From NCBI GenBank assembly GCA_030407315.1, contig JALQPE010001684.1, positions 1 through 64,000 on the forward strand: a DNA stretch of 64,000 nt, read 5' to 3'. This DNA comes from Asparagopsis taxiformis (taxonomy: Eukaryota; Rhodophyta; Florideophyceae; Bonnemaisoniales; Bonnemaisoniaceae). Below are positions 2,174 through 64,000 of this stretch, piece by piece; positions within the stretch are counted from its first letter, which is position 1, and every line of letters begins with the position of its first letter. Under the pieces are notes generated by a model. That model made no database searches and was not told the DNA's origin. It worked only from the letters and a program-made list of their open reading frames with translations. The position numbers and the translations under genes were made by a program.

Positions 2174-2204
2174 GGTCACGAAAGATGTTTTCATTTCGAC
2201 TACA

Positions 2205-2210
2205 AATAAA
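2205..2210 (+). promoter_or_regulatory. Polyadenylation signal AATAAA
   Basis: An exact AATAAA lies 32 bases after the methyltransferase-SET stop codon. It is conserved in the right copy (56437-56442, minus strand). Position and sequence fit a eukaryotic mRNA 3' end. Confidence 0.6.
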
Positions 2211-2420
2211 GCTACGTTCCAGAGTTGAAGTATATCATATAATGCAGCATGTCCAGCCACCATTAGTCCAGGGTGAAACCTATTGAGCAGTACTCGCCTG
2301 TCAAAAAACCAATCGTTCACACTCTAGGTGCACTTCGTCCGAGCAGTGAACCTGACTGCTTGGTTGCTGTTATGCGTGCAGATGCAAAATACACGACCAA
2401 GTTGAAATGGACGCCCGGTG

Positions 2421-2603
2421 GATGTCCAGCTCAGTTGCATTGCTGTCCAGCCCAGAAATTCTACAATTCAGGGCAGAAAAAAATATTGCAAAAAACATCG
2501 ATTTCAGCGGGTCGATTGTGCCGTACGGCACACCCCCATCTCAAAAACATGTTCACATGTGCATGTTTTTTGAGAATAGCCCAAATTTTAATTCAAATCA
2601 GGA
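2421..2603 (+). repeat. 183-bp flank repeat of the methyltransferase-SET gene (left copy)
   Basis: The unit runs from GATGTCCAGCTCAG to CAAATCAGGA and contains two self-complementary cores, GTGCCGTACGGCAC and AAACATGTTCACATGTGCATG. The same unit occurs at 56046-56227 (minus) and 60028-60206 (plus), so in the right copy it flanks the methyltransferase-SET gene in inverted orientation. It may be a terminal inverted repeat of a nested module or a MITE-like repeat. Confidence 0.75.
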
Positions 2604-2835
2604 CGTCTTCCGGACATAGGGGTGCTCGCGGCCTAGCTCGACAGCTGTAATTGTACCTCATTAAATACTGTTGATGACTGCCTACCGTATACAATCTGGG
2701 CTGTTGGCGTATTCTCCGGTACTTGACCTGACCTGAACGTTCATCGCAGACCGTTGTGGTTACCGACACTATACAGCAATCTTTTTTGTATCTCGTGCAA
2801 CTCAATCCTTCCATCGCTTCCGGGAAGGCTTCATT

Positions 2836-5113: not shown

Positions 5114-5190
5114 AATTAGTGCAGTAAATGTGACGTTGACTAGAAGGCTTATCATGTAGTACATTATCAATAGAGTGCTACGATTTAGAT

Positions 5191-8100
5191 TTATTCTTCT
5201 TCATTATCATCTGTGAACTGGTAATCAGTGTTGGTGTAGAAGCGGTTGAGATAGAAACGGTGGTCCGACCAGTGCATTTGTTTCGTAAATGGCTTGACTG
5301 GAAAGTTACTTCGTACGATGTGCACGGTGCCAGATATAGTAGATGCAGGAATGAGGTCAAACCAAGGACCACCTGCACTGTGGGATGCAGTGTCATTGCT
5401 GTCAACGGATCCGTTGTCCGGGTCCCATGTGGACCACTTTAAACAATGCACCCAAGTGATTTTTCCACAGCGGTTTTTGGGGCAAAGCAGGTCATATACT
5501 GAACGAAAGCGAGTTCTACAGGTTGAAACAGGTTTGGAGACTGCAGGCGTACCAGTGCCAGGACGCGCCCTACCCATATGGTTCTGTAGTCATCGGCAGT
5601 TCCGGAGATGACGACAAAGGAGTACTGCGATCTCTTTGCGGGGCCGAATGATGAAGTTGCAAAGACGCGCTGCTGCTTGTGCCTCGACACGTTTGTGGGG
5701 CGAAGCATGCCACTGTGCGGGTCAAAGTCGTCGGCATCTGGGACGTACCCTCCCATGACGTAGGCGGACTTTACCGCGGTGACGGAAATGTCCATGTCAT
5801 GTATTGGAGGGCCTTCTGCCGTGGCGCGCAGTCTAGCGAGGGTGAGGAAGGCTTGTGCAGCTGTGTCACCGAGTTGCTGGAATAGCGTTATGGTGCCAGA
5901 CGGGAACGAGGAGTTGTGCAGAGGCAAAAGAGTGGCAGGATCGGGCTGTCCGTCGATATCTGCAACGAGGAGGGTTGCATCGGGCAGCAGGGAGGCAAAG
6001 TCGTGCAGTGCAACGGTGAATCCGTCGCGAACGAGTACTGCACCGTCTGTGGGCGATATCATGCGTGCGTTTCCCAATGTGTTCGATGGGGTATGACCAG
6101 TTGGAGTGGCCAAGGAGAATTCCATGTGGCGAATAGTCTCTTCCATGGCTGTGGAGCGCCTTCGAGAGGTTTTCCTATAACTCTGTTTGAACAGAAGATG
6201 CGAGTGTTCGTAGGGGCCTGCATCAATGTGTTCCAGGGCGCCATATCTCTGCAAGTCACCGGGAAGATGGTCTAGAAGATGGAACTTGAAAGTTTTGAGA
6301 CCTGTGGTGTGGAATGGGCCGAGGGTGGAGATCATTGATTGTTTGAAATAGGAAATGGAGTTCTGGAGGCTTTCTAGTTCGGCGGCAGTCCAGTGCTTGA
6401 TGCGACCGCGTTTCATGACCCATGCGACGAGGTCAGAGTATTGCGTGCAGATGGAAGTGAGGGGGGCTGTCTCTACTTCGTCACAGCATGTGTCAATGAA
6501 TGCTGCGATGAAAGGGAACACCATGTCGACATGGTGATAGTCTTTGGCTGCGAGCATGCCGCGTATGCCGTCCTCCGTGAAGAGGCCGTTCAAATTGGTG
6601 CCCTTCTCACCCTTGGAGAAGTCGACATGAAGACCGGTGATGTAGTAGTCGCGTTCGATAGCGGACAGAATGCTGTTTGAGCCGGCGAGGATGGATTTTT
6701 TCACCTTCTTGAAGGTGCGAGGTGTCCTGGAATGGGAGGCAGTGGTGGTGGTGAGGTCTGGGGAGCTGAGGCGGTGGACAATGCACTGTTTGATGAGCTT
6801 TGAGATGCCGAGGTGGAGATTGTGCAGAGGCTCGAAGGAGAAAATGTTGTAGGGGTCTAGGGGACTGTTGGTGGGTAAAAGAGCGGTCGATTCGAGGACA
6901 GAGTGTTGTTCGAGGAGGGAGAGAGCTTCGAGCGGAGCAGTTGTATGCTCCTGAGCGCTCTCTTGGCGTGCAGAGCGTGTACCATCGAGGGAGCGGGGCT
7001 GGTGTGGCGCGCTAGATTCAAGTTGAGTGGCGGGGATGTAGCAGCGGTGGCAGGGATGTGTAGTGGTAGTGCTGTTGCGAGTGCATGAGAGCTCTTTGGC
7101 CTCTGGAAAGTCGCAGCAATAATTGGCTAGGATGGGAAAGCATTGGCGGGCAGTTGCAGTGGAGTCTGTGCAGGGGAACCCGGAAGAGAACGCGGTGGAT
7201 AGGGACGAAAACACTTTTTCGAGTGCTTTATGAAGAATATCAATTTTGCGAGCGCGACTAGCAGAACTAGAGGTTGTCGGCATTTCATCACCGAACAAGG
7301 CGTTGGACGAAGGGTTCACAATGTACGGAAGATACCCGACGATGGTGAGGCCGGTACGGATGCAGTGGCGACGGAGGGGGGCGGAGAAGTTGAGCAGTGT
7401 GACGTGTATGGGGTATGCGACGATTGCGGAGCTCTTGAGGCTTGTGCTGCTCTTGTCGGAGTACACTTGGAGGAGGCCGGCAAAGGAGGAAGGTGTGGGA
7501 TCATTTTCCTCTGCCCATACGACCTGTGGATCTTCCGAGAGCTGCACGCGCTGTCTAGTAACCTGGTGCAGCGTTTTTCGCGAATTCTGTGTGTAGGGGA
7601 TGAGAAAATATTGCGGTGCCGTCTGGGGCGGTCTGTGGGGAGGGGTGGAAGAGAGTATTTTGGTCGTTAGCCAGTGCTAACTGCCTGCGGAGCATGTCGA
7701 CTGGGTCGCGGAGGTACGGCTGTGCCGAGTACTTACCAGTTTTGTCTGGAATGATGTGGCTCTTGTAACCTTCGGTGCGGAAATGTGTTTCGACCATGGA
7801 AGCGGTAACGTGGCGACATTCTTCTACGGTGCGAACGGCGCTGTTGAACTTTTCTAGGGAGAATGCGGGGTCTTGTAGGATGGTGATGACTTCGCTCACG
7901 CGGCCAGCGCCGGCCTTGTACTCGAGGGTTGTGAGACTGGCGGCGAGGGATTGCACGAGGAGATCTGCGCGGGAGGGGGTTGAGGTTGGTGGCAGTGGAG
8001 CGTCACAGGGTGAGTCGCTGGAGGAAGCACGACCAGATTCTGGGTCTGGGGAGCTGGGTTGCGGGGAATCATGGTCGCCGTTTCGAGCAGGCTCATGGGT

Positions 8101-8232
8101 GACGGCAGGGACACGAACGTTGTTGAAATGTTGGGGAGAGGGGTTGAAACGGTAGCGACACGTTCGCTCATGCAGCGCGAGCGCATAAGCATCTACGCAG
8201 TAGTAGAAGCACCCTTCATACTTGCATTCCAT
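5191..8232 (-). pseudogene. Plavaka-type transposase, left copy, two frameshifts
   Basis: The start is the ATG at 8232 (MECKYEGCFYYC). An N-terminal C-x4-C-x12-H-x3-C finger is followed by a Plavaka-like core: an AYP-type block (IVAYPIHVTLLNF), IVGYLPYI, FPILANYCCDFPEAKEL with a following CxxC (CHRC), FEPLHNLHLGISKLIKQC, and KQSYRKTSRR near the end. These match the layout of Plavaka transposases of the CACTA-like group. Compared with the right copy, an extra A near 7560 and a missing T near 5445 shift the frame, leaving pieces of 225 and 702 codons plus a C-terminal piece. The right copy is intact at both sites. The stop TAA overlaps an AATAAA. Full length would be about 1,010 residues. Confidence 0.8.
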
Positions 8233-8833
8233 GTCGAGTTTTGACGCAAAAGGGAGGATTGCGAGCTGAACAGGGGAGACTGTGCCGTCCAGATGCGACC
8301 AATTTTATTTTTGTGGTGCTTTCGAGACTTGGAATGTAACGTGTTCGTTCGTAGTTTTGTGGGTAGTACTTTTGTGCTCACTCCAGCTGACATCCCAACG
8401 GTGGAATTTAACCGAGAGTTCAATCATTTCCAACTGTTACATCACATTGCGTGCTGGCAACGTGTGCATGGAAGGACGAACGACCGCCCTGGGAGATGAA
8501 TTTTCAATTAATTCATTAGTAATAATAAACTTTTTTATTTCCGAACTTCGTGGAATCTGAATGTGCTTTACAGCGGATATGCCACGGATCATGTAAGGAA
8601 AGCAAATGGATTCTCATATATATGATTATATGTTTATATTCGTTGTTCTCGATCCGGATCTCATTGTTCGGGGAATCAGAGACCATGGCTTGGGCCATAC
8701 TCAATCTCACTGCCGGCGATGATTTCGAGTATGCACAGCAAGACTTAAGCGGACGCAGAAAGCTGTCCGGTCGACGCCGCAGGCTCCACTCCGCCCTCAT
8801 CACCGACTGATATTCTTTGACCGACTTTGCTTT
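8233..8833. other. Transposase upstream region, no gene seen
   Basis: About 600 bases upstream of the transposase start. It is partly AT-rich (8500-8640) and conserved in both arms. Short ORFs here look random. It presumably holds the transposase promoter, but no clear TATA box decides its position. Confidence 0.4.
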
Positions 8834-8871
8834 GTACGTGCGCGAATCTTGATCAAGATTCGCGCACGTAC
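8834..8871. repeat. Perfect 38-bp palindrome
   Basis: Two 19-base arms with no spacer, centred on TTGATCAA; the left arm begins GTACGTGCGCGAATC. It is kept without change in the right arm at 49775-49812, so it predates the duplication. Confidence 0.95.
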
Positions 8872-8879
8872 CTTCGTTC

Positions 8880-9830
8880 CATCCTCTACCCACGAGGGTA
8901 TGCGTTCAGGGAAGCGTGGGTTTTGAGTCTGACTATTTCCGTTGATGCGATGTTTTTCATGGGAAGCCTGTTGACTGATGGTGTGTATTGAGCGGAGGAT
9001 GGAAGAGAGGTACGTGAAGTTTTGAAAGTATGCTGTGAGGGAAGGTTGGTTTTGAGTCTGACTGTTGTGGTTGATTCCGATGTTGTGTAGATCATGCAGG
9101 AATGTTGATGACGGAAGGTAAGTTTCATTGAGTGCCAAGATGTGCTTTGCGAAGATATGGACTGCTGACTATGATTATTATTCATTGCAAGGTTTTTGGA
9201 TCATGGTTTGTATTGTGTGTAGGATGGATGAGAGGTACATTTGCAGGTTCTCAGGGTATGTAGCGAGGGAAACGTTGGTTTTCAATCTGACTGTTGCGAT
9301 TGATTCCGATGTTGCGTAGGTGATGGAGGAATAGTGATGACGGAAGGTAAGTCACATTGGGCGCCCAGACCGGTTGTGCGAAGATGCGGAATGCTGACTA
9401 CTTTTCTTGGCTACACGATTACGTGATTTATGGTTTTTATTGTGTGCAGGATGGAACAGGTAAGGTAAGTGTGCGAGTTTTGAAAGTAAGCAGCGAGGGA
9501 AGGTTGGTTTTGGGTCTGACTGTTGTGGTTGATTCCGATTTTGTGTAGATGGTGCAGGAATGTTGATGACAGAAGGTAAGTTTTCACTGAGCACCAAGAC
9601 TTGTTTTGCGAAGATATGGACTGCTGACTTTGATTATTCATTGCAAGGTTTTTGGATCATGGTTTGTATTTTGTGTAGGATGGATGATTCACTCATCCTC
9701 TCGGAGAGGTAAGTAAGGGAGTTTCTAGGATATCTGTCGTGGTAAGCGTTGCTTTTGAATCTGACTGTTGGGGTTGATTCTGATGTTGTGTATGTGATGC
9801 AGGAGGGGTGAAGCAGGAACGGCAGGACTG
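8880..9830 (+). repeat. Tandem array of splice-site-bounded microexon-like units
   Basis: Degenerate units of roughly 200-240 bp. Each contains two short segments preceded by TGTGTAG or TGTGCAG and followed by GTAAGT, GTAAGG or GTACAT. A segment ending GATGAC(G/A)GAAG, exactly 27 bases each time, lies at 9091-9117, 9320-9346 and 9549-9575. A GATGGA-type segment of variable length lies at 9223-9234 (12), 9450-9459 (10) and 9679-9708 (30). The consistent AG...GT framing suggests exons and introns on the plus strand, antisense to and upstream of the transposase. A plain satellite is the alternative. Confidence 0.5.
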
Positions 9831-10368
9831 AAGGAGAGTGAAGAAGGGATCTAGGAAGATGGGGAATGAAGCTGTGAGGTGTTTCTGGTATGTGTATATT
9901 TTCGGGCATACGATAGAAGTGAGAGTGGGTTTCAAGTGGTGTAAGATTTTGCTGACCATGTTCGTGTTTGATGTCTTGATGATTTAATGGGCTGGGGTGG
10001 TGTCGAGGAAAGCGGGGATGGAATTGGGAAGGAGCGGATTTTTGTAATCTAGGTCGTGAGGGTTCTTGAAGTATGTGCGGATGGTGGTGCATGGCGTTCG
10101 GATGGTAGGGAGAACGCGATATTGAGGGAGATGGGTGATCGACGATATGCTGACAGGTATTTTGTATTCTGGCTGGATACGTATTTCGTATTCTGGCTGG
10201 ATACATATTCCGTATTCTGGCTGGATACGTATTTCCTATTCTAACCGGGTATTTATTTCCTATTCTGACCAGATATGTATTCCCTATTCTAGAGAGACGT
10301 ATTGTATAAGAGCAGTTTCCTAAATGAGAGAATAAAATACGGTCCGATATGGGCCCTGAATTTACCAT
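9634..10368 (-). CDS. Hypothetical 244-residue ORF, left copy
   Basis: An ATG-started ORF (MVNSGPISDRIL) of the same length as its copy at 48154-48888. Its N-terminal third is an eight-residue repeat of the IGNTYPAR/IRNTYPAR type, encoded by 24-bp DNA repeats. The rest is rich in His, Pro and Ser with no known domain. It lies on the transposase strand and overlaps the splice-like array. The open frame may be a by-product of repeats lacking stops, so coding is doubtful. Confidence 0.2.
   Translation of the reverse strand: MVNSGPISDRILFSHLGNCSYTIRLSRIGNTYLVRIGNKYPVRIGNTYPARIRNMYPARIRNTYPARIQNTCQHIVDHPSPSISRSPYHPNAMHHHPHILQEPSRPRLQKSAPSQFHPRFPRHHPSPLNHQDIKHEHGQQNLTPLETHSHFYRMPENIHIPETPHSFIPHLPRSLLHSPSVLPFLLHPSCITYTTSESTPTVRFKSNAYHDRYPRNSLTYLSERMSESSILHKIQTMIQKPCNE
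10158..10290. repeat. 24-bp tandem repeat, about five to six units
   Basis: Units resemble GTATTCTGGCTGGATACGTA followed by TTTC, most similar at 10160-10240 and degenerating toward 10290. The matching array in the right arm spans about 48215-48370. Confidence 0.85.
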
Positions 10369-10417
10369 CTGCTGTAATTTCTTCCCTCCCGGTTTTCGCT
10401 GATATATTGTATACTGG

Positions 10418-10633
10418 ATGTCGGGTCCTAGTATTCCGCCATATGTACTAGAGAAAGTGGATGTCGGGCCCTAGTATTCCGCCATATGTACTAGAGAAAG
10501 TGGACGTCCGCATCCAAAAAATTTTTATTTTTTTTTGGACGCGGACGTTCATTTGTTCTAGTAAATCTCGGGGCCGACTAGGACCCGTACTAGAGAGACT
10601 GGACGTCCGCGTCCACTTCCGAAAACACAGACG
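10418..10633. repeat. Subterminal repeats and inner terminus of element B (left)
   Basis: Two 43-bp direct repeats (10418-10460 and 10461-10503; core CCGCCATATGTACTAGAGAA) are followed by inverted GGACGTCCGC/GCGGACGTTC blocks around an A/T run, then a variant block with CCGTACTAGAGAGACTGG. Homology with the right copy ends at CGAAAACACAGACG (10633). Dense short direct and inverted repeats at a terminus are typical binding sites of CACTA-like transposases. Confidence 0.75.
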
Positions 10634-47846: not shown

Positions 47847-48104
47847 CGTCTGTGTTTTCGGAAGTGGACGCGGACGTCCAGTCTCTCTAGTACGGGTCCT
47901 AGTCGGCCCCGAGATTTACTAGAACAAATGAACGTCCGCGTCGAAAAAAAATAAAAAATTTTTGGATGCGGACGTCCACTTTCTCTAGTACATATGGCGG
48001 AATACTAGGACCCGACATCCACTTTCTCTAGTACATATGGCGGAATACTAGGACCCGACATCCACTTTCTCTAGTACATATGGCGGAATACTAGGACCCG
48101 ACAT
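47847..48104. repeat. Subterminal repeats and terminus of element B (right)
   Basis: Terminus at about 47847 (CGTCTGTGTTTTCGGAAGTG). Three 43-bp direct repeats at 47976-48018, 48019-48061 and 48062-48104 begin CCACTTTCTCTAGTACATAT; the left copy has two. CACTTTCT recalls CACTA-type ends. Confidence 0.8.
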
Positions 48105-48153
48105 CCAGTATACAATATATCAGCGAAAACCGGGAGGGAAGAAATTACAGCGG

Positions 48154-48888
48154 ATGGTAAATTCAGGGCCCATATCGGACCGTATTTTATTCTCTCATTT
48201 AGGAAACTGCTCGTATAAAATACGTCTCTCTAGAATAGGGAATACATATCTGGTCAGAATAGGAAATAAATACCCGGTTAGAATAGGAAATAGGTATCTA
48301 GCCAGAATACGGAATATGTATCCAGCCAGAATACGAAATACGTATCCAGCCAGAATACAAAATACCTGTCAGCATATCGTCGATCACCCATCTCCCTCAC
48401 TATCGCGTTCTCCCTACCATCCGAACGCCATGCACCACCATTCGCACATACTTCAAGAACCCTCACGACCTAGATTACAAAAATCCGCTCCTTCCCAATT
48501 CCATCCCCGCTTTCCTCAACACCACCCCAGCCCATTAAATCATCAATACATCAAACACGAACATGGTCAGCAAAATCTTACACCACTTGAAACCCACTCT
48601 CACTTCTATCGTATGCCCGAAAATATACACATACCAGAAACACCTCACAGCTTCATTCCCCATCTTCCTAGATCCCTTCTTCACTCTCCTTCAGTCCTGC
48701 CGTTCCTGCTTCACCCCTCCTGCATCACATACACAACATCAGAATCAACCCCAACAGTCAGATTCAAAAGCAACGCTTACCACGACAGATATCCTAGAAA
48801 CTCCCTTACTTACCTCTCCGAGAGGATGAGTGAATCATCCATCCTACACAAAATACAAACCATGATCCAAAAACCTTGCAATGAATAA
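48154..48888 (+). CDS. Hypothetical 244-residue ORF, right copy
   Basis: ATG-started and the same length as at 9634-10368, with a few substitutions. Eight-residue repeat near the N-terminus from 24-bp repeats at about 48215-48370. Equal length in both copies mildly supports coding; low complexity argues against it. Confidence 0.2.
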   Translation: MVNSGPISDRILFSHLGNCSYKIRLSRIGNTYLVRIGNKYPVRIGNRYLARIRNMYPARIRNTYPARIQNTCQHIVDHPSPSLSRSPYHPNAMHHHSHILQEPSRPRLQKSAPSQFHPRFPQHHPSPLNHQYIKHEHGQQNLTPLETHSHFYRMPENIHIPETPHSFIPHLPRSLLHSPSVLPFLLHPSCITYTTSESTPTVRFKSNAYHDRYPRNSLTYLSERMSESSILHKIQTMIQKPCNE

Positions 48889-49750
48889 TCAAAGTCAGCA
48901 GTCCATATCTTCGCAAAACAAGTCTTGGTGCTCAGTGAAACTTACCTTCTGTCATCAACATTCCTGCACCATCTACACAACATCGGAATCAACCACAACA
49001 GTCAGACCCAAAACCAACCTTCCCTCGCTGCTTACTTTCAAAACTCGCACACTTACCTTCGCTCCACACAATACACACCATGACTCAATAGGCTTCCAAT
49101 GAAAAATATAGCATCAACGGAAATAGTCAGACTCAAAACCAACCTTCCCTCGCTGCTTACTTTCAAAACTCGCACACTTACCTTACCTGTTCCATCCTGC
49201 ACACAATAAAAACCATAAATCACGTAATCGTGTAGCCAAGAAAAGTAGTCAGCATTCCGCATCTTCGCACAACCGGTCTGGGCGCCCAATGTGACTTACC
49301 TTCCGTCATCACTATTCCTCCATCACCTACGCAACATCGGAATCAATCGCAACAGTCAGATTGAAAACCAACGTTTCCCTCGCTACATACCCTGAGAACT
49401 CGCAAATGTACCTCTCATCCATCCTACACACAATACAAACCATGATCCAAAAACCTTGCAATGAATAATAATCATAGTCAGCAGTCCATACCTTCGCAAA
49501 CCACATCTTGGCACTCAATGAAACTTACCTTCCGTCATCAACATTCCTGCATGATCTACACAACATCGGAATCAACCACAACAGTCAGACTCAAAACCAA
49601 CCTTCCCTCACAGCATACTTTCAAAACTTCACGTACCTCTCTTCCATCCTCCGCTCAATACACACCATCAGTCAACAGGCTTCCCATGAAAAACATCGCA
49701 TCAACGGAAATAGTCAGACTCAAAACCCACGCTTCCCTGAACGCATACCC
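48720..49750 (-). repeat. Splice-like microexon array, right copy
   Basis: Minus-strand counterpart of 8880-9830. It has one extra unit at about 49070-49195, in which a GAGCGAAG segment is followed by GTAAGTGTGCG. Copy number therefore differs between arms while the donor-like GTAAG motifs are kept. Confidence 0.5.
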
Positions 49751-50413: not shown

Positions 50414-53400
50414 ATGGAATGCAAGTATGAAGGGTGCTTCTACTACTGCGTAGATGCTTATGCGCTCGCGCTGCATGAGCGAACGTGTTGCTACCGTTTC
50501 AACCCCTCTCCCCAACATTTCAACAACGCTCGTGTCCCTGCCGTCACCCATGAGCCTGCTCGAAACGGCGACCATGATTCCCCGCAACCCAGCTCCCCAG
50601 ACCCAGAATCTGGTCGTGCTTCCTCCAGCGACTCACCCTGTGACGCTCCACTGCCACCAACCTCAACCCCCTCCCGCGCAGACCTCCTCGTGCAATCCCT
50701 CGCCGCCAGTCTCACAACCCTCGAGTACAAGGCCGGCGCTGGCCGCGTGAGCGAAGTCATCACCATCCTACAAGACCCCGCATTCTCCCTAGAAAAGTTC
50801 AACAGCGCCGTTCGCACCGTAGAAGAATGTCGCCACGTTACCGCTTCCATGGTCGAAACACATTTCCGCACCGAAGGTTACAAGAGCCACATCATTCCAG
50901 ACAAAACTGGTAAGTACTCGGCACAGCTGTACCTCCGCGACCCAGTCCACATGCTCCGCAGGCAGTTAGCACTGGCTAACGACCAAAATACTCTCTTCCA
51001 CCCCTCCCCACAGACCGCCCCAGACGGCACCGCAATATTTTCTCATCCCCTACACACAGAATTCGCGAAAACGCTGCACCAGGTTACTAGACAGCGCGTG
51101 CAGCTCTCGGAAGATCCACAGGTCGTATGGGCAGAGGAAAATGATCCCACACCTTCCTCCTTTGCCGGCCTCCTCCAAGTGTACTCCGACAAGAGCAGCA
51201 CAAGCCTCAAGAGCTCCGCAATCGTCGCATACCCCATACACGTCACACTGCTCAACTTCTCCGCCCCCCTCCGTCGCCACTGCATCCGTACCGGCCTCAC
51301 CATCGTCGGGTATCTTCCGTACATTGTGAACCCTTCGTCCAACGCCTTGTTCGGTGATGAAATGCCGACAACCTCTAGTTCTGCTAGTCGCGCTCGCAAA
51401 ATTGATATTCTTATAAAGCACTCGAAAAAGTGTTTTCGTCCCTATCCACCGCGTTCTCTTCCGGGTTCCCCTGCACAGACTCCACTGCAACTGCCCGCCA
51501 ATGCTTTCCCATCCTAGCCAATTATTGCTGCGACTTTCCAGAGGCCAAAGAGCTGTCATGCACTCGCAACAGCACTACCACCACACATCCCTGCCACCGC
51601 TGCTACATCCCCGCCACTCAACTTGAATACAGCACACCACATCAGCCCCGCTCCCTCGATGATACACGCTCTGCACGCCAAGAGAGCGCTCAGGAGCATA
51701 CAACTGCTCCGCTCGAAGCTCTCTCCCTCCTCGAACAACACTCTGTCCTCGAATCGACCGCTATTTTACCCAGAAACAGTCTCCTAGACCCCGACATCAT
51801 ATTCTCCTTCGAGCCTCTGCACAATCTCCACCTCGGCATCTCAAAGCTCATCAAACAGTGCATTGTCCACCGCCTCAGCTCCCCAGACCTCACCACCACC
51901 ACTGCCTCCCATTCCAGGACACCTCGCACCTTCAAGAAGGTGAAAAAATCCATCCTCGCCGGCTCAAACAGCATTCTGTCCGCTATCGAACGCGACTACT
52001 ACATCACCGGTCTTCATGTCGACTTCTCCAAGGGTGAGAAGGGCACCAATTTGAACGGCCTCTTCACGGAGGACGGCATACGCGACATGCTCGCAGCCAA
52101 AGACTATCACCATGTCGACATGGTGTTCCCTTTCATCGCAGCATTCATTGACACATGCTGTGACGAAGTAGAGACAGCCCCCCTCACTTCCATCTGCACG
52201 CAATACTCTGACCTCGTCGCATGGGTCATGAAACGCGGTCGCATCAAGCACTGGACTGCCGCCGAACTAGAAAGCCTCCAGAACTCCATTTCCTATTTCA
52301 AACAATCAATGATCTCCACCCTCGGCCCATTCCACACCACAGGTCTCAAAACTTTCAAGTTCCATCTTCTAGACCATCTTCCCGGTGACTTGCAGAGATA
52401 TGGCGCCCTGGAACACATTGATGCAGGCCCCTACGAACACTCGCATCTTCTGTTCAAACAGAGTTATAGGAAAACCTCTCGAAGGCGCTCCACAGCCATG
52501 GAAGAGACTATTCGCCACATGGAATTCTCCTTGGCCACTCCAACTGGTCATACCCCATCGAACACATTGGGAAACGCACGCATGATATCGCCCACAGACG
52601 GTGCAGTACTCGTTCGCGACGGATTCACCGTTGCACTGCACGACTTTGCCTCCCTGCTGCCCGATGCAACCCTCCTCGTTGCAGATATCGACGGACAGCC
52701 CGATCCTGCCACTCTTTTGCCTCTGCACAACTCCTCGTTCCCGTCTGGCACCATAACGCTATTCCAGCAACTCGGTGACACAGCTGCACAAGCCTTCCTC
52801 ACCCTCGCTAGACTGCGCGCCACGGCAGAAGGCCCTCCAATACATGACATGGACATTTCCGTCACCGTGGTAAAGTCCGCCTACGTCATGGGAGGGTACG
52901 TCCCAGATGCCGACGACTTTGACCCGCACAGTGGCATGCTTCGCCCCACAAACGTGTCGAGGCACAAGCAGCAGCGCGTCTTTGCAACTTCATCATTCGG
53001 CCCCGCAAAGAGATCGCAGTACTCCTTTGTCGTCATCTCCGGAACTGCCGATACTACAGAACCATATGGGTAGGGCGCGTCCTGGCACTGGTACGCCTGC
53101 AGTCTCCAAACCTGTTTCAACCTGTAGAACTCGCTTTCGTTCAGTATATGACCTGCTTTGCCCCAAAAACCGCTGTGGAAAAATCACTTGGGTGCATTTG
53201 TTTAAAGTGGTCCACATGGGACCCGGACAACGGATCCGTTGACAGCAATGACACTGCATCCCACAGTGCAGGTGGTCCTTGGTTTGACCTCATTCCTGCA
53301 TCTACTATATCTGGCACCGTGCACATCGTACGAAGTAACTTTCCAGTCAAGCCATTTACGAAACAAATGCACTGGTCGGACCACCGTTTCTATCTCAACC

Positions 53401-53453
53401 GCTTCTACACCAACACTGATTACCAGTTCACAGATGATAATGAAGAAGAATAA
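50414..53453 (+). pseudogene. Plavaka-type transposase, right copy, two frameshifts
   Basis: ATG at 50414; pieces 50414-51517, 51430-53073 and 53148-53453. A base is missing near 51412 (CTTATAAAG against left CTTCATAAAG) and another near 53050 (GATACTAC against GATGACTAC). Both sites are intact in the left copy, so the two copies carry different lesions. Motifs are as in the left copy. The stop TAA (53451-53453) is inside AATAAA. This is the only transposase in the window and the likely mover of element B. Confidence 0.8.
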
Positions 53454-53530: not shown

Positions 53531-55813
53531 TCAACCATCCTCCATTACGCCAAAACTGTTATCAGCAGTTGCTGCATGGCGCCGCTCCATGCCCCCATAC
53601 TGTGGGGCATTGATTTCTACATTCAGGTTTGCACTCAGGTGTCCAGCATATGGGTCAACGACGAAAAGTTCTGCGCCAATTAGTCCTTGCGCAATCACAC
53701 AATCCATTACAGCACCGAGGTTTGACGTAATATGCGATTGAATCCAATCCTCGGACACTAGAACAAGTGATGAGCAGCGGTTTACATCATCAACGACATG
53801 AACAATTCCAGACCCCTCTCCGCTTTGCCACACTTCAACAGCCTCTCTCGTCACAGTACGGCTTGCAAACACATGCCGCGACTGTGCACTAGTCCGCTGT
53901 TCGCTCTCGACAACGTCCGTTTCTTCCCTTGCTTGCGAGCCTTGGAGACAAGACATGCAGTACACCACCATACCAACTAATTGCTGAAAAGCTACCCCCA
54001 CATATTGACTGTACCTCCTTGTAAACTCCTTCTGCCGTGCACCTCCTTTCCCCTTCGGTTCATCCAAACACTCCACAGTAGTCACTAGCCAAGCATCCAG
54101 GCGCGCCAGCGTTAGTATGCTCGTCTCTATGTCCATTACTTGTTCTGGTCGTATCGAATAACCCCTGAAGATGTCCAGCACATTCACAGCTACTCGGTTG
54201 TTAAACCATGCATCACCATTCACTTCCATTTCGAAGCTGTCAGGAACCATGCCTTTGCTGTATCGCAGCTCTGAGAACGGTGCCGTTCGCCACCTCCCCA
54301 TATCCAAATCACCGTTGCTTTCCCGTTTCAAAAGCTTCTCAGACGCTTCGCGCTTTTGATCCTCTCGCTCGTCCATCTCAGCTCGCGTCGTCAGCATCGT
54401 GCATCTAGACATTAATTTCGTGTACCCCAGCGAACCGAACAATCTGTCCCTCGCATTACGCTTCCGTGCACTCATCACGTCGGACAGTTTCTGCGTCACC
54501 TTCACTTTCAATTCCTTGCTCCCCGCCACAGCCTCTTGACAGCACACACGCTGCTCCTCATCGGAAAACACATCACACCACGGACTTTGACGCAGTACGT
54601 GTCGCACCAAGTCATTCAGCAGATCACTCTCGTCTCTGTACGAAGGTGTATACCACTGCAGATTCTTGATGATGTAGCCCGGAGGGGTAGCAATATATCC
54701 TACACCGTTTTCGCTCCAAAGTGTCCCTTCTACCGGCTCTACCTCGATGGTACGTCCAGTCCAACGTCTCTGCGTTTGTTCCGCTATAGGGTCCAGCTCC
54801 ATAGTCTCGTTCTTGCACCACTTTGTCAGGTTTTCCTCAACCGCCCTAAGAACTCCAAGGTATTTCACAGGAATGGCTTTCTGTATTTTCGACTTACCGC
54901 CACCGTGATCACTGATTCTACCTGTTCTCGCAATTGCAGTAAGGCTGGCATTTTCCGCCTGCAGAGTTTCACCTTAGCCTCCAACGCAACTATCTCCGTG
55001 GTGAGCGCCTTGTTTGCTATGTCCTGGCTAAACACTTTTTTTCCAGCTCCGCGATCTTCTTCTTCTGCGCATTGATGCGACTCGCCATTAAATCGATGGA
55101 TTCCGGCGGATGCAACCTCTCTGCCCTCACCGTCCCCCCATCTCCACGCTATCGGGATTATGATGTCCTCCATCGGCAATAGCCTGACGTCGCGGGGGCG
55201 TTACGCGCATATTTGGCACCAATGACAGTCTGTTGTGACGAGGCCCGCACTCCGGCTGCTCTCTCCCCTCAGTACCACCTGACCGCCGATGATAGTTGGC
55301 ATCCTGTGAACGTTGCTCAGAAACAACATCCCTTGCCGCTATCCTCGGGTCCCTGACTGCATTACCTGCTGGGGCTGATGTACTCGGCATAGTTGGCGCA
55401 GTGGGGGTCACAGCCTCCAGTGTCTCGCGAACCCCCGGCTGGGACTCCGTCTGCAGCACCTCCGCATCTGCCAACCCGGGAGGAACTACCTTTGCCATAG
55501 CACTCTGCCGCAATTCCAACATGTTTTGAGCCACTATCATGTCATCATCATGATGTTCACTGTCCCTGCGAGCACGCTTGCCTCGGTCAAGCCCCATCTC
55601 TCTCCGCGCCGTTCCTCCTTCCTCACTTTCTCGCTGCGGATCCCCAGTTCTGCGCCGGTCCGTCTTGCGACTACCGGACCGCGGTTCAATGCTGCCGGTA
55701 GGCCCAGACCGCTTCTTCGCACGGGATTGTCGGGCACTCGATACAGCAGCTGCTGACCGGGTTTTCTGGAGGCCCGGAGGCTTTGGAGCTTTCTTCGCAA
55801 TACGCGGCGGCAT
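53531..55813 (-). pseudogene. Coiled-coil helical protein of element B, right copy
   Basis: ATG at 55813 (MPPRIAKKAPKPPG). Pieces of 228, 104 and 445 codons overlap in different frames (breaks near 55130 and 54870). N-terminal 200 residues are basic and disordered with possible nuclear signals (AKKRSG, DRGKRARRD). A coiled coil follows (KKIAELEKK; TTEIVALEAKV). The 445-residue part is folded and helical (NDLVRHVLRQSPWCDVF; KRNARDRLFGSLGY) and ends in a hydrophobic block (VMDCVIAQGLIGAELFVVD). The 445-codon ORF is open in both arms, which favours a real protein. It lies between the transposase (convergent) and the methyltransferase. DNA or chromatin binding is possible but not shown. Confidence 0.65.
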
Positions 55814-56045: not shown

Positions 56046-56227
56046 TCCTGATTTGAATTAAAATTTGGGCTATTCTCAAAAACATGCACATGTGAACATG
56101 TTTTTGAGATGGGGGTGTGCCGTACGGCACAATCGACCCGCTGAAATCGATGTTTTTCGCAATATTTTTTTCTGCCCTGAATTGTAGAATTTCTGGGCTG
56201 GACAGCAATGCAACTGAGCTGGACATC
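56046..56227 (-). repeat. Inverted flank repeat of methyltransferase-SET gene, inner
   Basis: Starts TCCTGATTTGAATTAAAATT on the plus strand. It pairs in inverted orientation with 60028-60206, enclosing 4.16 kb. No target duplication found at its outer edges. Confidence 0.8.
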
Positions 56228-56436
56228 CACCGGGCGTCCATTTCAACTTGGTCGTGTATTTTGCATCTGCACGCATAACAGCAACCAAGCAGTCAGGTTC
56301 ACTGCTCGGACGAAGTGCACCTAGAGTGTGAACGATTGGTTTTTGACAGGCGAGTACTGCTCAATAGGTTTCACCCTGGACTAATGGTGGCTGGACATGC
56401 TGCATTATATGATATACTTCAACTCTGGAACGTAGC

Positions 56437-56442
56437 TTTATT
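56437..56442 (-). promoter_or_regulatory. Polyadenylation signal AATAAA
   Basis: 32 bases after the methyltransferase-SET stop on the minus strand; conserved with 2205-2210. Confidence 0.6.
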
Positions 56443-56473
56443 TGTAGTCGAAATGAAAACATCTTTCGTGACC

Positions 56474-59400
56474 CTAATTCCATGCTCTAAACGCTGTCCC
56501 ATAATGAACGTAGAGCTCCTGCCCCGGACGGATATCGCGGATTGCACGTACTACAATGATCTTCGGATTTTCTAGGTCCTTCGCCTTGAGCTTCTTCCCC
56601 GTCGAACCGCTGCTGTAGTTCTCGACAAACTCGACGTTGGCCATCCGCCTGGTGTCTTCCGCCGGAGTGTCCTCACCTCGCAAATACCGCGGGTCGTTGA
56701 TGAACTGCGCCGAACAGAACGGAGCCGGAACAATCCAAATTGGATGCTCGATGTTTTCGTCGTCCTCCGCTGTTGCATACAGCTTGATGGCATACATCAA
56801 GAATGTTTCCTTCGTTATCGCCATGTGACCCTCTCCGTACGCGAACCTCATCGACTCCTTGCTCATATCAGAGTACACAACAGTTCCGTAGTATGCACAT
56901 ACTTCGTCGCCAACATTAAATGTCTGTTCAGCGAAGAGCCCTCTTCCTGCATTTGGATGCTTAATCAGCGATGGTCGAACGCTCAATTTTTTCGCAACAC
57001 AATCGTGTGCCCGCATCACGCGAGGGTTTTCAGTTTGCAACCAGCGGCGCAGGGAAGAAGGTGGCCAATAATGTACCGGTTTTTCCATGTGCTCGTGCGA
57101 CGCAATCGACTCTGGGCACAGCTGCCAGAGGTACTGCCGAATATATTTCGGGAACCTCTGGTACAGGGGAAGGCCAGGTGGGGGTTCGATGATCCTGCGT
57201 TCCCTCTGCGTACGCATCGTGACAGAAGGGGACGCCAAGAACTTCTCAGCACTCTGTTTCGCTTCTGTCGTGACCCTCATGTCAGTGTTGTTTGAAAGAA
57301 TTACACGTGACATGACTGCACACAGCTTTGGAAGCGATCGTGCCACACACAATTTGTCCATGTCACTGCCGACGAAAACACGGTGCTCAGGCAAGCTCAT
57401 AGCTGCTTTTCCCGTTGCGAAAGTGCCAGAGAATGGATCGACAACAATATCACCAGGCTGTGAATGCTGGCTGATCAACTCCATCATGAGAGCGACGCTC
57501 TTCTGCTCTGCACGAACTCTGACCGTAGCACCGGTTGTGCTCCTTGTTCGCCACACCATCTCATTCGAATCGATGGCGGGCATATTGATGGTGACGTTGC
57601 ACCACGCCGGGTACGTGCCGTCCATGTATCCGTGGTTCCTATAGGCCACCATCTCGCTTCCAGTCTTGAACGGAACACCTCGCTTCCAGAAGTGGATAGC
57701 GACCTCTGCCATGTTCATGCGTTGGTACCTCTTCCGCCCCGGCATTTGATAGAGGTGCCCAGGTAGTCGGACAAACAACAGAGGTACCTCGCCAACGAAG
57801 AAAACTGAATTCCGAACGACGTCCTCCTCCTCCTCGTCTCCTCCTCATCCGCACTTTCTTCGCCACTGTGCTGCGATGCTTCGGAGTCCGAATTCATGGA
57901 CGTAACCTCTTCTTCATCCGACCCGTCATCACTGGCAGCAGCATCGGTTGGGCCTTCTGACTGCGGTCCTTTGTACGTTTCCAAGTAATGGAACCATTCG
58001 TAGAACTGCAAAACGGAGCAGAACACGATGCCGTGGCCACCGGGGCGCAACAGCTCGTCAAACACTTCGATGCTAGCCTGCATATCTTCTGCAGTTAGCC
58101 TGTCGTACGAAGAGTTGGAATCGTTCCTCTTACGACGAACATTGTAGGGCGGATCAGTCAGAATGAGCTGAACGTTGCCCGTGATGGGCACGTGTTCTCG
58201 GCTCTCGTCGGCACTGACCAAATCTTCGAAAGGGACGTCGTACACCCGGCAATACTGACTCATTTTCGAAAGAAAGTCCTTTGCGAGAGCCTGCCCTTCA
58301 CTTTCCTGCTCTTCTGTCGCATGGGGTGACGGTGACGGGGGAGACGACGGCCCTTGGGCAGTAAGACTGGTCCTCCCAGGTCCAAGTTGAAGCCTGGTTG
58401 TGTGTCTTGTCGACGGAACCAAACCTCTCCCTCCTGTGTTGCGACGAGTGGGAGTGTCATCAACCGGCTTGGGGACCTTTTCTGCGTCCGCGACTTGTGG
58501 TGCCGGGCGGAGGACAGCCATAACGTCTTCGTCGAGGGTGTCAAAGTACGCTGGCAGCTTGTCCGGATTTCCGCTTGACAAGTATATTTCCAGCGCCCCC
58601 CAGCGGTCGGACTCCGGCCAGGTGTACAGGTCCGGGTTGACGATAAGAAACTGCAACCGGTCGAAGAACTTCCTCACAAGGTCCCTAAATGCACTGTGCT
58701 GCGCACTGGTTCTTGTCTCTACTTTTCCACCATATCCATCAGGATGAGATAGGGGAGCTTTGTCGTGGTAGAGATCTAGCTTCTGCTCCATCGGTGCGAA
58801 TAGACCTTCATCGAGCACGTCAAACCAATGCTCACTGCTGTCGAAAATGATGTACGGCGCCATCAACTCTTCGAAGCTGGAAAACTTTGCGGCGAAGGCC
58901 ACATCGGTCCAAGCATGGTATAAAACTTGAACCACGTAACAAGCTCGATTAGTGCTTTTCCGATGGGCTGGGACGCGTGCGGCTTCGTTCCCCTCTTCGG
59001 CCGCGTCGCCTATTCGGCGACGCGGCAGGTTCTTGTTGTGATTTCGGATGATAGACAACGCTTGGAAATACATCAATACCTCGAACGTTTCCGGTGGAGC
59101 AAGAACGAAGGCGCTTGGTTCCCCGCGCTGCGGCGCCTGTAGTGGCGAAGGAAGCATGTTACATCCAATAAGGAAGGTCTGCGGCACGATCCCAGAAAGG
59201 ATGCAGTGCTCAACCCATTGCCCGATACGCTCATCCTGTCTTGAAAACTCGGCAATCGGTAATGCCAGACGAACAATCTGCTTGGCTCGCTCAACGTTCA
59301 TCTCTGCCATGACGATTTCGGCAACATCCGCCTCGACTCCAGCATTCTTCGAACGACCGCTGAAGGACATGCTGAGTCGACCTTGCAGCGCCAGAAATTG

Positions 59401-59676
59401 TTCTTCCGTGCCCTGCGCAACCCAAGCGCCAAGGTCCGCGTATGTGAAACCTCCCGGCTTGTCCGTCAAGTCTGCGAAACTTGAGTGGGCGAACAAATCC
59501 AGCAAGAGGCGGAGGAAGTCTTTGCCAGCGAGAGTAGTTTCGCGGGCGGCGCGACCTACGTTTCGACGTGTACCCATGTCACTAGAATCCTCCCAAGGGC
59601 TAGCGGGTTCGCGCAGAATTGGCACGGTTGCGTCGTCAACGATCGGATTGCTGTTGCGCCTGCGCTTATTCGTCAT
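56474..59676 (-). CDS. DNA methyltransferase-SET fusion protein (element B)
   Basis: ATG at 59676 (MTNKRRRNSNP, basic). Two overlapping ORFs of 653 and 434 codons are joined by one indel in a GAG-rich acidic run near 57835; the left copy has an extra G there and stays in frame, so one protein of about 1,070 residues is expected. Residues 1-400 are helical domain X. LILTDPPYNVRRK at about 500 and LRPGGHGIVF are beta-class methyltransferase motifs, and DPFSGTFATGKAA plus VGSDMD form the AdoMet site, so the catalytic motif comes first as in N6/N4 enzymes; DPPY favours N6-adenine. The C-terminal 190 residues carry SET motifs: AGRGLFAEQTF, YYGTVVYSD, FINDPRYL, and IRPGQELYVHYG. FIND replaces the usual NH in the SET core, so activity is uncertain. 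Confidence 0.8.
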
Positions 59677-60027
59677 AATGGAATGAGTGGAAATTCGGTA
59701 CAGGATGGCGACCGCTCGGCGAGACAGTCAAATTTGACGACGTATCTCGTGACGTTTGCACTCTTTCGTGAGGAACACTGGTTGATATCGAACGGAACAG
59801 AGTATACGGGTACACAGCACTGGAAAGGTCTTGAAACCCGTAACCGGTGTAGGTAATAAGTTGTGACGGATACGTGGTAGAGAAAAATTTTAAAAAGATT
59901 GTGATTCCCTGTCTTTGAGTGTTGTACTGCACGGCCGCCATGGCGGCTGTGACTGCAGTCACATAGGTTGTCACAGGTGCATCACGCTTACCAGGTGAGC
60001 GACATCCGGACGGCCACTGGACATGGG

Positions 60028-60206
60028 GATGTCCAGCTCAGATGCATTGCTGGCCAGACCAGAAATTCTACAATTTCGGGCAGAAAAAATATTGCAAAAA
60101 ACATCGATTTGGCGGTCGATTGTGCCGTACGGCACATCCCCATCTCAAAAACATGTTCACATGTGCATGTTTTTGAGAACAGCCCAAATTTTAATTCAAA
60201 TCAGGA
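60028..60206 (+). repeat. Inverted flank repeat of methyltransferase-SET gene, outer
   Basis: Same unit as 2421-2603, with scattered substitutions. It lies about 350 bp upstream of the methyltransferase start. Confidence 0.8.
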
Positions 60207-60780: not shown

Positions 60781-60954
60781 CTTGCATTCCAGCGGTCACG
60801 ATAGGTGTGTACCTAACAAAATTTCGGTTGTATTGTGTTATTTTTCCAGCGATTGGCGTTCACGACCATTCTTCAAGCAACGTGAAAACCTACCATCCAC
60901 ATCACTCCAATACGTCAACGTCAACCATCTCTTTTCCTTTCCAACTCAACAACC

Positions 60955-63900
60955 ATGGCGGATACGCATTTCAGCAGTTTGTTTTCAACGGTTTGCGGCG
61001 ATCAAGTGAGCGCGTCAGCGGAGTCGCGCGGACTCAAGCGCGGGGTCGATGTCAATTTGTTTGCGGACGTGGACGGTGCGGCTGTGCATATGGGACGGCT
61101 TCGGTGAGCACTGCTGGGTGGCGATGTTGGCCTTCCGCGCACACTGCACAACCACAAGCTGCCGGAAACCGACGAGCGGACTATATCGTCGTGCGCAACA
61201 TTGCGACTAAGGACAAGTTCAAGGACCTCCCGTTCCCGTACATGTTTGATGGCGCCGAGGGACCGCCGGAGACGATGGGTGGAGCATACGCCGCGGCGTT
61301 TTTACCCTTGGGATACTCGGATGATGCGCCCCGCTGCGGAGGATGGCCCTAGCGACATTCGTACCCCTGCTGCAGCGTCAAACTTCAACGCAGCGACGAA
61401 CCAGGCCAGCTCGGGACGGATGCCCAGTACCAGTCCGGCAGGCGAAATCACTGGTTCGGGGGGTACGAAAAGCATCCAGCACGCTCCATTCCGGTTTCGG
61501 GAGGCACGAAGCGCCCTGCTCGCTCTGCAAGACCCTCAAGTGGAGGCACGAAGCACCCTGCTCGCTCCAACGTCACCGAAGCTACTACGCAGGACGTAAC
61601 CGAGGTGGACGACGAACCGGAGGTGGCGGAGAGCATTCGTGAGCAGCAGGGGACGCAAATTACGGTGCCCAAGTTTGTGACGTCGGATTACGTCGGAGAA
61701 GGAGCGACTGTGTTGGTGAGGCAGCTAGTGGAACCGGCCGTGACCCTTCGGGATGTGAAAGAAGACCACGTGGAGGACCTGCGCAACAATATGTTGGCTG
61801 GGGGGTATGTGAGCTCTTCGCGTATCACTGTGACGGTGCTGAGGTCGCAGAACACGCATCTGTCCGCCGACACGCGTCTGTTCCAGAATGGCAAATTCCA
61901 TGCCAATGCGAACGTGACCGTGATCGACGGACTGCATCGTCTCAATGCTATGCATAGCATTGCCGATGACTTCACGCGCCTCACCCGTATGCACAGAACC
62001 AAGCTGCCACAGGACGCAAATCGCTTGCGCTGGGTTACTCAGCCTCTGGATGTGTACTACCTTCGCCGCAAGGACAACAGTGATCTTCAGCCTCATGAGA
62101 TCATCCACAAGAGTGCAGAGTCGAACCATACGACTGGGACGCAACTGACGGAGCGCTCCCTGGTTCGAATCTTGTCGTCCATCCAGCAGTTTCATCCGTA
62201 CGATTGCTGTTGCAAATAACGTGGAAAACGCTGGCGACTTGCGTGAGTCTGATGTCATCCGAACATTGTTCGAGGCGCAGTTCATGGGATGATGAATTCA
62301 ACGAACACGGCCGGCGGTGGACGCGTTTGGCTATAGCAACGCTGAAGCATCCTGTTCTCGACGAAGTGTTGCGTGAGCTGAACAATTCTGAGCGCCGCAA
62401 CGAGATTGGGATAACGCACCTGGACCACAAGATAGTGCGCGAGTTGCTGGAAGAAAACTTTGTCTTCGTCTTGCGTGGTCTTTCGGAGTACTTGAACCCT
62501 GCTCATGGTGGACGTCCGGATGGACGCTTTGACGTGAACGACTTCTATACATACGTCCGTCGCGTGACTGCAATAGCAAATTCTCTGTACGCTGCGTTGG
62601 GCGCCCAAAGAGTATTATGCGCAAGTCATTTCTGAGCACAGAGATGGCAATTGGGTTCGGTTAAGCAGCCGAAGGAGTTGCAATGGCATCTCACCAATGC
62701 CATTGCAATGTATAGAGGGGACGACCGGAGCAGTGAGGTTCGAATGCGACGGAGAACCACGCGTTTACAGGATTTGGAACGAACTTGAAAGAGTTTTTCA
62801 ATCCGACATTGAAGAAGAAGACTAAGGCTCGACGCAAACGCCGCCCTTCTGCTGCCAATGTGAGACTCACTCACAAGAAGCAGCGGAATGTCGAACATGA
62901 GCCTGCTTCGCATGGCATCCGCCGCCGTTCACAGCGACTTCGCTCGACGGGGAGCACACGCCTCGAGGAAGAAGAGCCGGTTGTGGTACAACAATCCGCC
63001 GGGGAAGAAGAGCAGGCCGTTGTTGATAAACCCACCGATCAACAACAAGCCACTGTTTCCGGTGATGAGGGTGACGAAGACTCCGCCCGTTCCCCGATTC
63101 TGCCGTTGAGATTGTCCCCCAAGATAACCAACGTGCTGGTGCGACTCCCTCCAACCAAGAATCTGTCCATACCGCTTCGGACGAGGAAGAAAACAACAGT
63201 GCAGATGAGGGCCATGTCAAAAGCAAGGGGGTCCGCGAAGTGACAATTACACTCACTGTTCCGGAAGGAGTCGAAGTCGATGAAGACGGTTACATCGTTC
63301 GTGACTCTCCATCTGAACACGACCTCCTGTTCGACGACCGTATGCCATCTCTTCCTGACGATTTCGAAGTCAAAGACCGAGCCGAAGGGCATCATCTGGC
63401 GCAGCGTCCCGCGGACGTCATCGCATCGGTGAGGGTTGGCTGTCTGCCCCGATTGAGCTCAGGTTGTTATTGGAGAGTGTGGAAATCGATGAGGAGGGCA
63501 GAGAGGTGAGGTATTTGAAGCAAGTGGCGATGGACCCTGTGTTTGAGGGGCTGCATATTCCGGAACAACATCGGGCTCGTCATCTTGTTTTCGAGATCGA
63601 GACCATCTATCCGATGTTTTTCGCAGCGTGGAAGATGGCTGCCAAGGCGATGTGTGAGCCTACATCGACGTTTCTACCCTCGAGGCTGGACTTCGCCCAG
63701 GTTGCGCGAATGTCTACAAGCTGGAAGGATTCGTATGAGGCCGGCACTGGTATGGCGTACTTCCACAATTGCCGAACGGAAATCAACGAGCGAGGGTATA
63801 CGGTGATGCACAATTTCGCGGATGTAAGCTACCTCGATGCGTCGGACAAGTTCCCATTTGACTTGGGTCTCATGGAAGAATTCCTAACCAGGAATTGTTT

Positions 63901-64000
63901 CGGTACTTCTTGGGAACATGGGAGGGGGAGGAGGTGCACAAGGACCCTGGGAACCGGCAGCTGTGGAGTCCTATTGTCAATACGGGGGACGATGAAACAG
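60955..64000 (+). pseudogene. ParB-like gene of element B, frameshifted, runs off the window
   Basis: Likely start ATG 60955 (MADTHFSSLFSTVCGD) in ACCATGG context. The clearest piece (61605-62219) carries the ParB-like signature VTVIDGLHRLNAM and VYYLRRKDNSDLQPHEIIH. These match EVEVLDGAHRSKAV and the following helices of element A's ParB ORF. Later pieces: 62290-62635 (RNEIGITHLDHKIVRELLEE), a very basic stretch (KKKTKARRKRRPSA, 62785-63243), and an open frame without an early ATG from about 63430 to 63890 (RARHLVFEIETIYPMFFAAW), continuing in a shifted frame to the edge. It is divergent from the methyltransferase-SET gene. Many one-base breaks: pseudogene or poor consensus. Confidence 0.6.

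Follow-up and report, generated by a model that had tools for sequence, protein, structure and literature searches.

This report concerns a gene in a 64,000-nucleotide stretch of the red alga Asparagopsis taxiformis (assembly GCA_030407315.1, contig JALQPE010001684.1, positions 1 to 64,000; hereafter the window) that carries a DNA amino-methyltransferase (MTase) domain and a SET domain, and that lies within a large transposon with a Plavaka-type transposase. A preliminary description, made from the letters of positions 56474 to 59676, had placed both domains in one gene of a transposon, with the MTase ahead of the SET domain. The gene and its domains lie as follows.

56474..59676, minus strand: MTase-SET fusion gene, start at 59676, stop at 56476-56474, frame broken near 57838 by one missing base
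57353..58176, minus strand: beta-class DNA amino-methyltransferase region (motifs LTDPPYN, RxEQK and DPFSGT; profile and fold matches)
56498..56947, minus strand: SET domain (AGRGLFA, YYGT, FINDPR and ELYVHYG; profile and fold matches)

Every motif quoted in that description is present on the minus strand, and the MTase of the window copy is divided over two open reading frames (ORFs) offset by one frame: ORF 59676-57718 (653 amino acids from its ATG) contains LTDPPYN and LRPGGHG, and ORF 57778-56477 contains DPFSGT, AGRGLFA, YYGT, FIND and PGQELYVHYG. Pfam recognizes both domains on the second ORF (N6_N4_Mtase, E 9.2e-11; SET, E 2.1e-7), and on the first only the start of the MTase, under the cut-off (E 0.0096). 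Two findings that would have refuted the description, separate genes in related copies and the lack of a significant profile match, did not arise: in related copies both domains belong to a single gene, in the proposed order—the copy at locus L010 is a single ORF of 1063 amino acids, with the MTase at residues 501-772 (E 2.6e-15) and the SET domain at 907-1056 (E 1e-6), and both profiles score above their curated cut-offs (PF01555, 57.4 against 26.7 bits; PF00856, 29.5 against 22.4). Elsewhere in the genome the single ORF measures 1062-1064 amino acids at L009-L014 and L016, 1081 at L015 and 1030 at L017; across the fetched loci L009-L021, one ORF of at least 1030 amino acids is found in 9 of 13, and the gene is truncated or broken in the other four.

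The stretch around the break was recovered ten times by a pattern search of the sequence examined, which missed loci L014-L016, L018 and L019. Eight loci and a second, inverted copy in the window form one length class, the inverted copy carrying one extra G at the break site 57838, and the sole odd length among the ten is that of the reported copy. Many single-base gaps separate the two window copies; decay or long-read assembly error may have produced them, either being expected. Neither an intron nor a programmed frameshift at 57838 accounts for the break, and a GT-AG intron within the acidic stretch (judged by eye only) was likewise rejected, since the nine other instances are plainly in frame. 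The split of the reported copy into two frames might also suggest neighbouring genes joined by chance or by assembly; this is refuted by other copies and by database homologs, where the gene is one ORF, and by the nine in-frame break sites, and we give it next to no credence. On the sequence evidence it is nearly certain that one polypeptide holds both the DNA amino-methyltransferase domain and the SET domain.

The genome searched comprises 141.49 Mb in 3156 contigs, and profile searches of it scored the best 150 of 1661 SET candidates and the best 150 of 2605 N6_N4 MTase (PF01555) candidates. The scored SET matches, classed by score rather than one by one, comprise 10 stronger ones, presumably host genes, and 140 of transposon type, 65 of which sit within reading frames that stay open for 1063 amino acids or more. 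At eight places MTase and SET matches from these best-150 lists are neighbours; they share one open frame at six, and the frame is broken between them at two. Over eight intact copies, the ratio of non-synonymous to synonymous polymorphism (pN/pS) is 0.27, from 22 synonymous and 20 non-synonymous changes (8 of 10 supplied loci were counted, L015 and L019 being left out by a motif filter); the SET part alone has two synonymous changes and one non-synonymous change, too few to stand alone. By these counts the gene is evidently under purifying selection, and many copies are intact.

Relatives were sought among 5.8 billion proteins (sources of those found: ena, jgi and lgn), in searches that scored the 8000 (7996) candidates sharing most words and that may miss relatives. 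Eight were found: P0005, 99% identical, and P0006-P0012, at 26-29%; a further profile-based search returned only P0005 among the scored candidates. All seven of P0006-P0012 extend across MTase, linker and SET, and they retain the MTase motifs, conserved linker residues and SET signature residues. In nine aligned proteins, 23-29% identical to the reference, the MTase motifs D507-P-P and D744-x-F-x-G-T are invariant and in that order, as are G907xG909, N990-D991-x-R993 and Y1055 in the SET domain, where GxG and the tyrosine (catalytic-type) are functional motifs. Precomputed Pfam annotation includes SET in P0006 and P0010. The Pfam SET match is marginally above the cut-off in P0008 (E 0.00015) and below it in P0009 (E 0.0035) and P0007 (E 0.0046); P0011 and P0012 have no Pfam SET, and their signature residues are visible in the alignment only.

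A second MTase-SET family occurs in the same genome, represented by L022 (contig C44, 67500-75000; protein P0001, 1155 amino acids), with a ParB-like N-terminus, the MTase at 652-875 and the SET domain at 1001-1148; it is 23% identical to the first over 884 columns. Because the seven homologs and this second family share the MTase-linker-SET layout, the fusion is old and maintained. Trees of the MTase and SET halves do not resolve, one of six inner branches being well supported in each. The MTase region matches the phage family phrog_67 in both families (E 4.9e-17 for L010, 3.8e-23 for the second family); a viral origin was rejected as far as one collection of viral contigs goes, since a scan of it with the MTase-SET alignment gave three loci with short MTase-only matches, and a scan with the ParB/dioxygenase-like protein described below gave none. 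Other families, at L024, L027 and L028, have an MTase and no Pfam SET match.

Beside the L022 gene lie repeats spaced 881 bp, with long palindromes unlike those of the first family. Locus L026 also belongs to the second family, and no repeat array of the 881-bp type was seen there. In the window, positions 26471-28753 (minus strand) hold a broken transposon-type gene with a ParB-like (DGAHR) N-terminus and the start of an N6_N4 methyltransferase; it is 37% identical to residues 23-750 of P0001, and the tblastn match ends before the SET part.

The predicted fold agrees with both domain assignments. An AlphaFold model of P0005 has a mean predicted local distance difference test score (pLDDT) of 55.5, with ten-residue blocks of the MTase core and SET domain mostly at 60-90, and Foldseek matches CcrM (E 8.6e-8) and the MLL1 SET domain (E 8.3e-5) within this one chain. 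The SET matches among the best 50 Foldseek matches listed are MLL1 and PRDM9, both of which have SET domains of the type that acts on lysine 4 of histone H3 (H3K4).

The mobile element named in the preliminary description is real, and its limits lie far beyond 56474..59676. Its features in and beyond the window are these.

47847..47879, plus strand: left terminal inverted repeat, CGTCTGTGTTTTCGGAAGTGGACGCGGACGTCC
contig 67314-67346, beyond the window: right terminal inverted repeat, two differences from the pattern
47887..48094: subterminal TACTAG/CTAGTA hexamer array; the left 1.5 kb holds 8 hexamers where 0.5 is expected
47971..49738: tandem repeats and direct repeats, subterminal, at the left end of the element
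50414..53453, plus strand: Plavaka-type transposase (PF18759), overlapping ORFs 50414-51517 and 51430-53073 with a continuation in another frame
53531..55813, minus strand: gene without Pfam match, basic N-terminus, several ORFs in each of three copies compared
56046..56228: inverted-repeat arm (about 183 bp) bracketing the MTase-SET gene, with the 14-bp palindrome GTGCCGTACGGCAC at 56117-56130
60027..60206: other inverted-repeat arm, 93% to 56046-56228, palindrome at 60122-60135
60950..64000 (start approximate), plus strand: gene with ParB-like (DGxHR) and dioxygenase-like (HxD..H..R) parts, running on to about contig 64.9 kb; broken
1..10633: second, inverted element copy, cut by the contig start, left terminal inverted repeat at 10601-10633

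The inverted copy is 99.06% identical to the first (window 2-9533 against 58656-49113) and includes part of the MTase-SET gene, from 1 to about 2180 on the plus strand. PF18759 matches the transposase of the window copy twice (E 6.1e-10, over the cut-off, and E 7.1e-6, at 25.9 bits against a cut-off of 26.3) and that of the inverted copy at 5442-7547 with E 6.1e-23; in two other copies the transposase ORFs encode 367 and 697 amino acids. Between window 47847 and contig 67346 the window copy runs collinear with those on contigs C1850 (loci L029, L010 and L032) and C279 (L033, L012 and L030); the exceptions are expanded repeats near 60.7 and 65.4 kb, and the C279 copy is short of the last ~100 bases. 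Their lengths are 19,500, 21,693 and 20,523 bases, respectively. A smaller transposon, the 4.2-kb unit 56046-60206 framed by the inverted-repeat arms, was considered and rejected: in most of 13 copies the match crosses one or both 60-base flanks, and the three copies are collinear far past it, with ends about 20 kb apart.

Allowing at most one mismatch, the 33-base terminal pattern is matched 1342+1358 times in the genome and 0+0 times in the control. The element ends read CGTCTGTG..CACAGACG, the inverted repeats beginning CGTCTGTG, and they differ from the TGT..ACA of PlavakaA and the CATCA..TGATG of PlavakaB in fungi; the element is Plavaka-type by its transposase and is assigned to neither fungal sublineage. 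Of 12 paired ends (the window copy, C1850 and 10 fetched pairs), 7 have a 2-bp target duplication: AA, TG, GA, TA, TT and AT, and TG again at both ends of the window copy; fungal Plavaka elements have duplications of 2 or 3 bp (PMC12730594). The five pairs without a matching dinucleotide were scored as misses. One of them, pair 3, is probably a wrong pairing because its flanks match different sequences (inside element copies; L028), and another, pair 10, spans 27 kb. Two empty sites, one matching 58 of 58 bases in L029 and one matching 57 of 58 inside other element copies, both fit a 2-bp duplication.

On contigs C11, C12, C14, C49 and C90, paired ends lie only about 11-12 kb apart, and these pairs are possibly shorter derivatives of the element. 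A 15.6-kb pair on C12 includes both 14-mers from the inverted repeat around the MTase-SET gene, and the 11-kb pair on that contig has no listed match.

Two kinds of candidate site stand out in the element. The three copies compared hold 3, 7 and 4 perfect instances of the palindrome GTGCCGTACGGCAC, and the whole genome holds 8,237 (control, 0)—2.9 times the count for one neighbouring 14-mer of the same repeat, 2,885. Over 31 distinct local repeats the conservation of the palindrome is 0.995 against a mean of 0.964; this conservation ranks only 17th of 167 windows, which speaks in part against a special site. Taken together, the conservation and abundance of the palindrome fit a predicted binding site. 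The hexamers TACTAG/CTAGTA cluster at both ends of the window copy (left, 8 against 0.5 expected; right, 8 against 0.7) and number 1 against 2.0 in its middle, the expectations being computed from dinucleotides. This distribution invites an explanation in terms of transposition control: methylation of end sites such as these arrays would steer transposase binding or couple transposition to replication, and the SET domain would methylate the transposase or another element protein in place of histones. Among bacterial transposons there are known cases in which DNA adenine methylation controls transposition, a precedent that counts in its favour; however, the arrays may be mere transposase sites. 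We consider this account unlikely.

The gene beyond the right arm, the partner gene, is intact in other copies as an ORF of 1317 amino acids, with a ParB-like stretch around DGxHR and a C-terminal HxD..H..R; it is full length and open in all 35 scored copies (of 4380 first-look candidates). On the eight contigs common to the partner-gene list and the best-150 SET list, the SET domain and the partner gene lie on opposite strands, divergent and about 4-6 kb apart, on six, and not so on two. Among the scored candidates the partner protein has two distant relatives, P0013 and P0014, and HxD..H..R is invariant in the three sequences. The phage ParB-like family phrog_1033 matches P0001 (E 0.003) and P0008 (E 0.13) and gives no match to the 1317-amino-acid protein, which likewise found no match in a PDB search; the partner protein and the second family share DGxHR, and neither matches a Pfam ParB profile at E 1 or below. 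By eye, a host PhyH protein and the dioxygenase-like region show the same order of HxD, PGSH-like motif, distal H and R.

Our preferred reading, to which we would assign an even chance, is that the MTase-SET protein is the chromatin-writing module of a Plavaka-type transposon of about 19.5-21.7 kb that marks itself to escape silencing. The MTase would methylate adenine in the element's own DNA (giving N6-methyladenine, 6mA; N4-methylcytosine, 4mC, is less likely), and the SET domain would methylate histone lysines in the same chromatin. With both marks in place, the element and its fresh insertions would stay open to expression and transposase would be produced—anti-silencing by self-marking. 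The ParB-like partner, whose C-terminal motif resembles that of 2-oxoglutarate dioxygenases, may bind the palindromes repeated in the element and take away a mark that competes. From the protein families we predict S-adenosylmethionine-dependent methylation of both DNA adenine and lysine, and action on the element's own chromatin is suggested by context. We judge dual enzymatic activity of the fusion protein to be likely, and the SET domain might act on a protein other than a histone. Eukaryotic 6mA accompanies permissive chromatin, H3K4me3 being named in the part of the source used here (PMC12695648).

Several observations weigh against this reading. The nearest SET domain by sequence profile is KMT5A, not MLL1, and for this reason the fold ranking does not fix the lysine mark. 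The pseudoknot motif, canonically NHS or NHSC, is N-D-x-R in all nine proteins; this lowers the prospect of a typical histone methyltransferase and, as judged from sequence, leaves the SET fold as it is. Homologs differ at the fourth residue of DPPY (Y, F or L), and because of this difference and the replaced NHS some of the family may lack activity or act on other substrates. In base composition, the observed/expected ratio of CpG is 0.97 in the element against 1.18 in window 10700-47700, and those of TG and CA are higher in the element (1.13 and 1.16 against 0.97 and 0.99)—no strong depletion, and a mild difference that leaves room for some cytosine methylation. As for the partner, profile tests of the dioxygenase-like region against PDB chains and the host PhyH protein gave nothing significant, the AlphaFold model of P0014 is unusable (pLDDT 30), and the dioxygenase assignment is a motif-only one.

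The altered pseudoknot, together with the lack of a Pfam SET call in P0011 and P0012, could mean that the SET half is a decayed or structural passenger and that the DNA methyltransferase acts by itself. Signature residues that stay invariant across nine proteins so far diverged from the reference argue otherwise, as does the whole-gene pN/pS, to which the SET part contributes too few changes of its own; a passenger role therefore seems to us quite improbable.

A further difficulty for self-marking against silencing is that silencing or copy-number control would leave the same sequence traces. Surplus copies could be silenced by the DNA mark together with a repressive mark on lysine, which would limit damage to the host, a form of self-restraint comparable to bdelloid N4CMT with SETDB1. 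In bdelloid rotifers, a bacterial-type N6_N4 MTase with a chromodomain marks transposons for silencing (PMC8885841, in the part drawn on here), and the present alga lives with 2,700 element ends in its genome. Self-silencing, however, profits an element only under special conditions, and many copies are near-identical and intact, which indicates recent activity; the SET matches to MLL1/PRDM9 by fold and KMT5A by sequence do not fix the substrate either way. Self-restraint is, in our view, unlikely.

The preferred reading also draws on the methylation machinery of the host. A C5-DNA-methyltransferase profile search of the genome gave no match, with 10 of 14 control genomes positive, and a gene split by introns or left unassembled could escape it; Tet_JBP and MT-A70 searches were uninformative because no control genome was positive. 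In the same genome 13 phycobilisome matches were found, 11 of them on the contig holding the rubisco gene, which identifies the host as a red alga. The published assembly of Asparagopsis taxiformis L6 has 142.47 Mb in 3308 contigs from PacBio data, with 33.5% DNA transposons, and the source shows site-specific and adenine-specific DNA methyltransferase genes drawn beside the bromoform biosynthesis cluster (PMC12115072, in the part used here); such transposons may be the source of these genes. It may be that this alga relies on transposon-type enzymes for its DNA methylation. More broadly, the element may form a self-contained epigenetic system, in which the palindromes would load ParB-like proteins that place a dual writer and a putative eraser on the element, and, in a host where no C5-DNA methyltransferase is detected, such transposons would supply most nuclear DNA methylation—a proposal that we regard as doubtful. 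As an observation on its own, the absence of a C5-DNA-methyltransferase match stands beside at least 150 scored places for PF01555.

Parts of this arrangement have precedents. Bdelloid N4CMT shares the MTase fold class (8s9o, 8s9n and 8s9m are among the Foldseek matches), the fusion to a chromatin module and the link to transposons; its gene belongs to the host and its product is a reader of histone marks, whereas here the gene is transposon-borne and the MTase is joined to a putative writer, SET (PMC8885841, in the part consulted). Fungal DNA transposons with TET/JBP genes, Plavaka among them, also carry an enzyme that changes DNA marks; theirs is a dioxygenase, and the sections of that report used here describe neither a DNA methyltransferase nor a SET fusion (PMC12730594). 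HarbingerS and MuDR transposons of Phytophthora carry SET methyltransferase genes, as cited in the same report, with SET as such and, in those sections, no mention of fusion to a DNA methyltransferase (PMC12730594). Giant repeats of Amoebidium are likewise large, gene-rich and flanked by Plavaka transposases, with red-algal relatives; their gene content is described as tyrosine recombinases, and 'SET domain' is absent from the main text of that paper (PMC11244446).

Among prokaryotic enzymes, the beta-class N6-adenine MTases CcrM, M1.HpyAVI and M.RsrI share fold and motif order, and they stand alone, unlike the large eukaryotic protein described here with its N-terminal region and SET domain. 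Of the phage families, phrog_67 matches the MTase region by profile and phrog_1033 gives a match at E 0.003 to the second-family N-terminus; both are families of bacterial and archaeal viruses, whose members were not searched for SET. Earlier work describes TET/JBP and SET genes on transposons as well as a host fusion of MTase and chromodomain, and the MTase-SET fusion on a transposon is apparently new: a literature search found no report of a DNA methyltransferase-SET fusion, an earlier mention in specialist papers on eukaryotic adenine methylation or TET/KDZ transposons being possible.

Distinct readers and writers normally couple DNA methylation to histone methylation, each layer strengthening the other. 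A single polypeptide with both kinds of writer, spread by a transposon and kept by selection, would physically link both layers, and a parasite rather than the host would write the marks. Do red algae carry 6mA or 4mC, is it placed by transposons, and is self-marking a route to thousands of ends per genome?

Elsewhere in the window, positions 29473-41554 hold a Gypsy-type long terminal repeat (LTR) retrotransposon with reverse transcriptase, integrase and a weak chromodomain match; its LTRs of 658 bp are 99.5% identical, which points to recent insertion.

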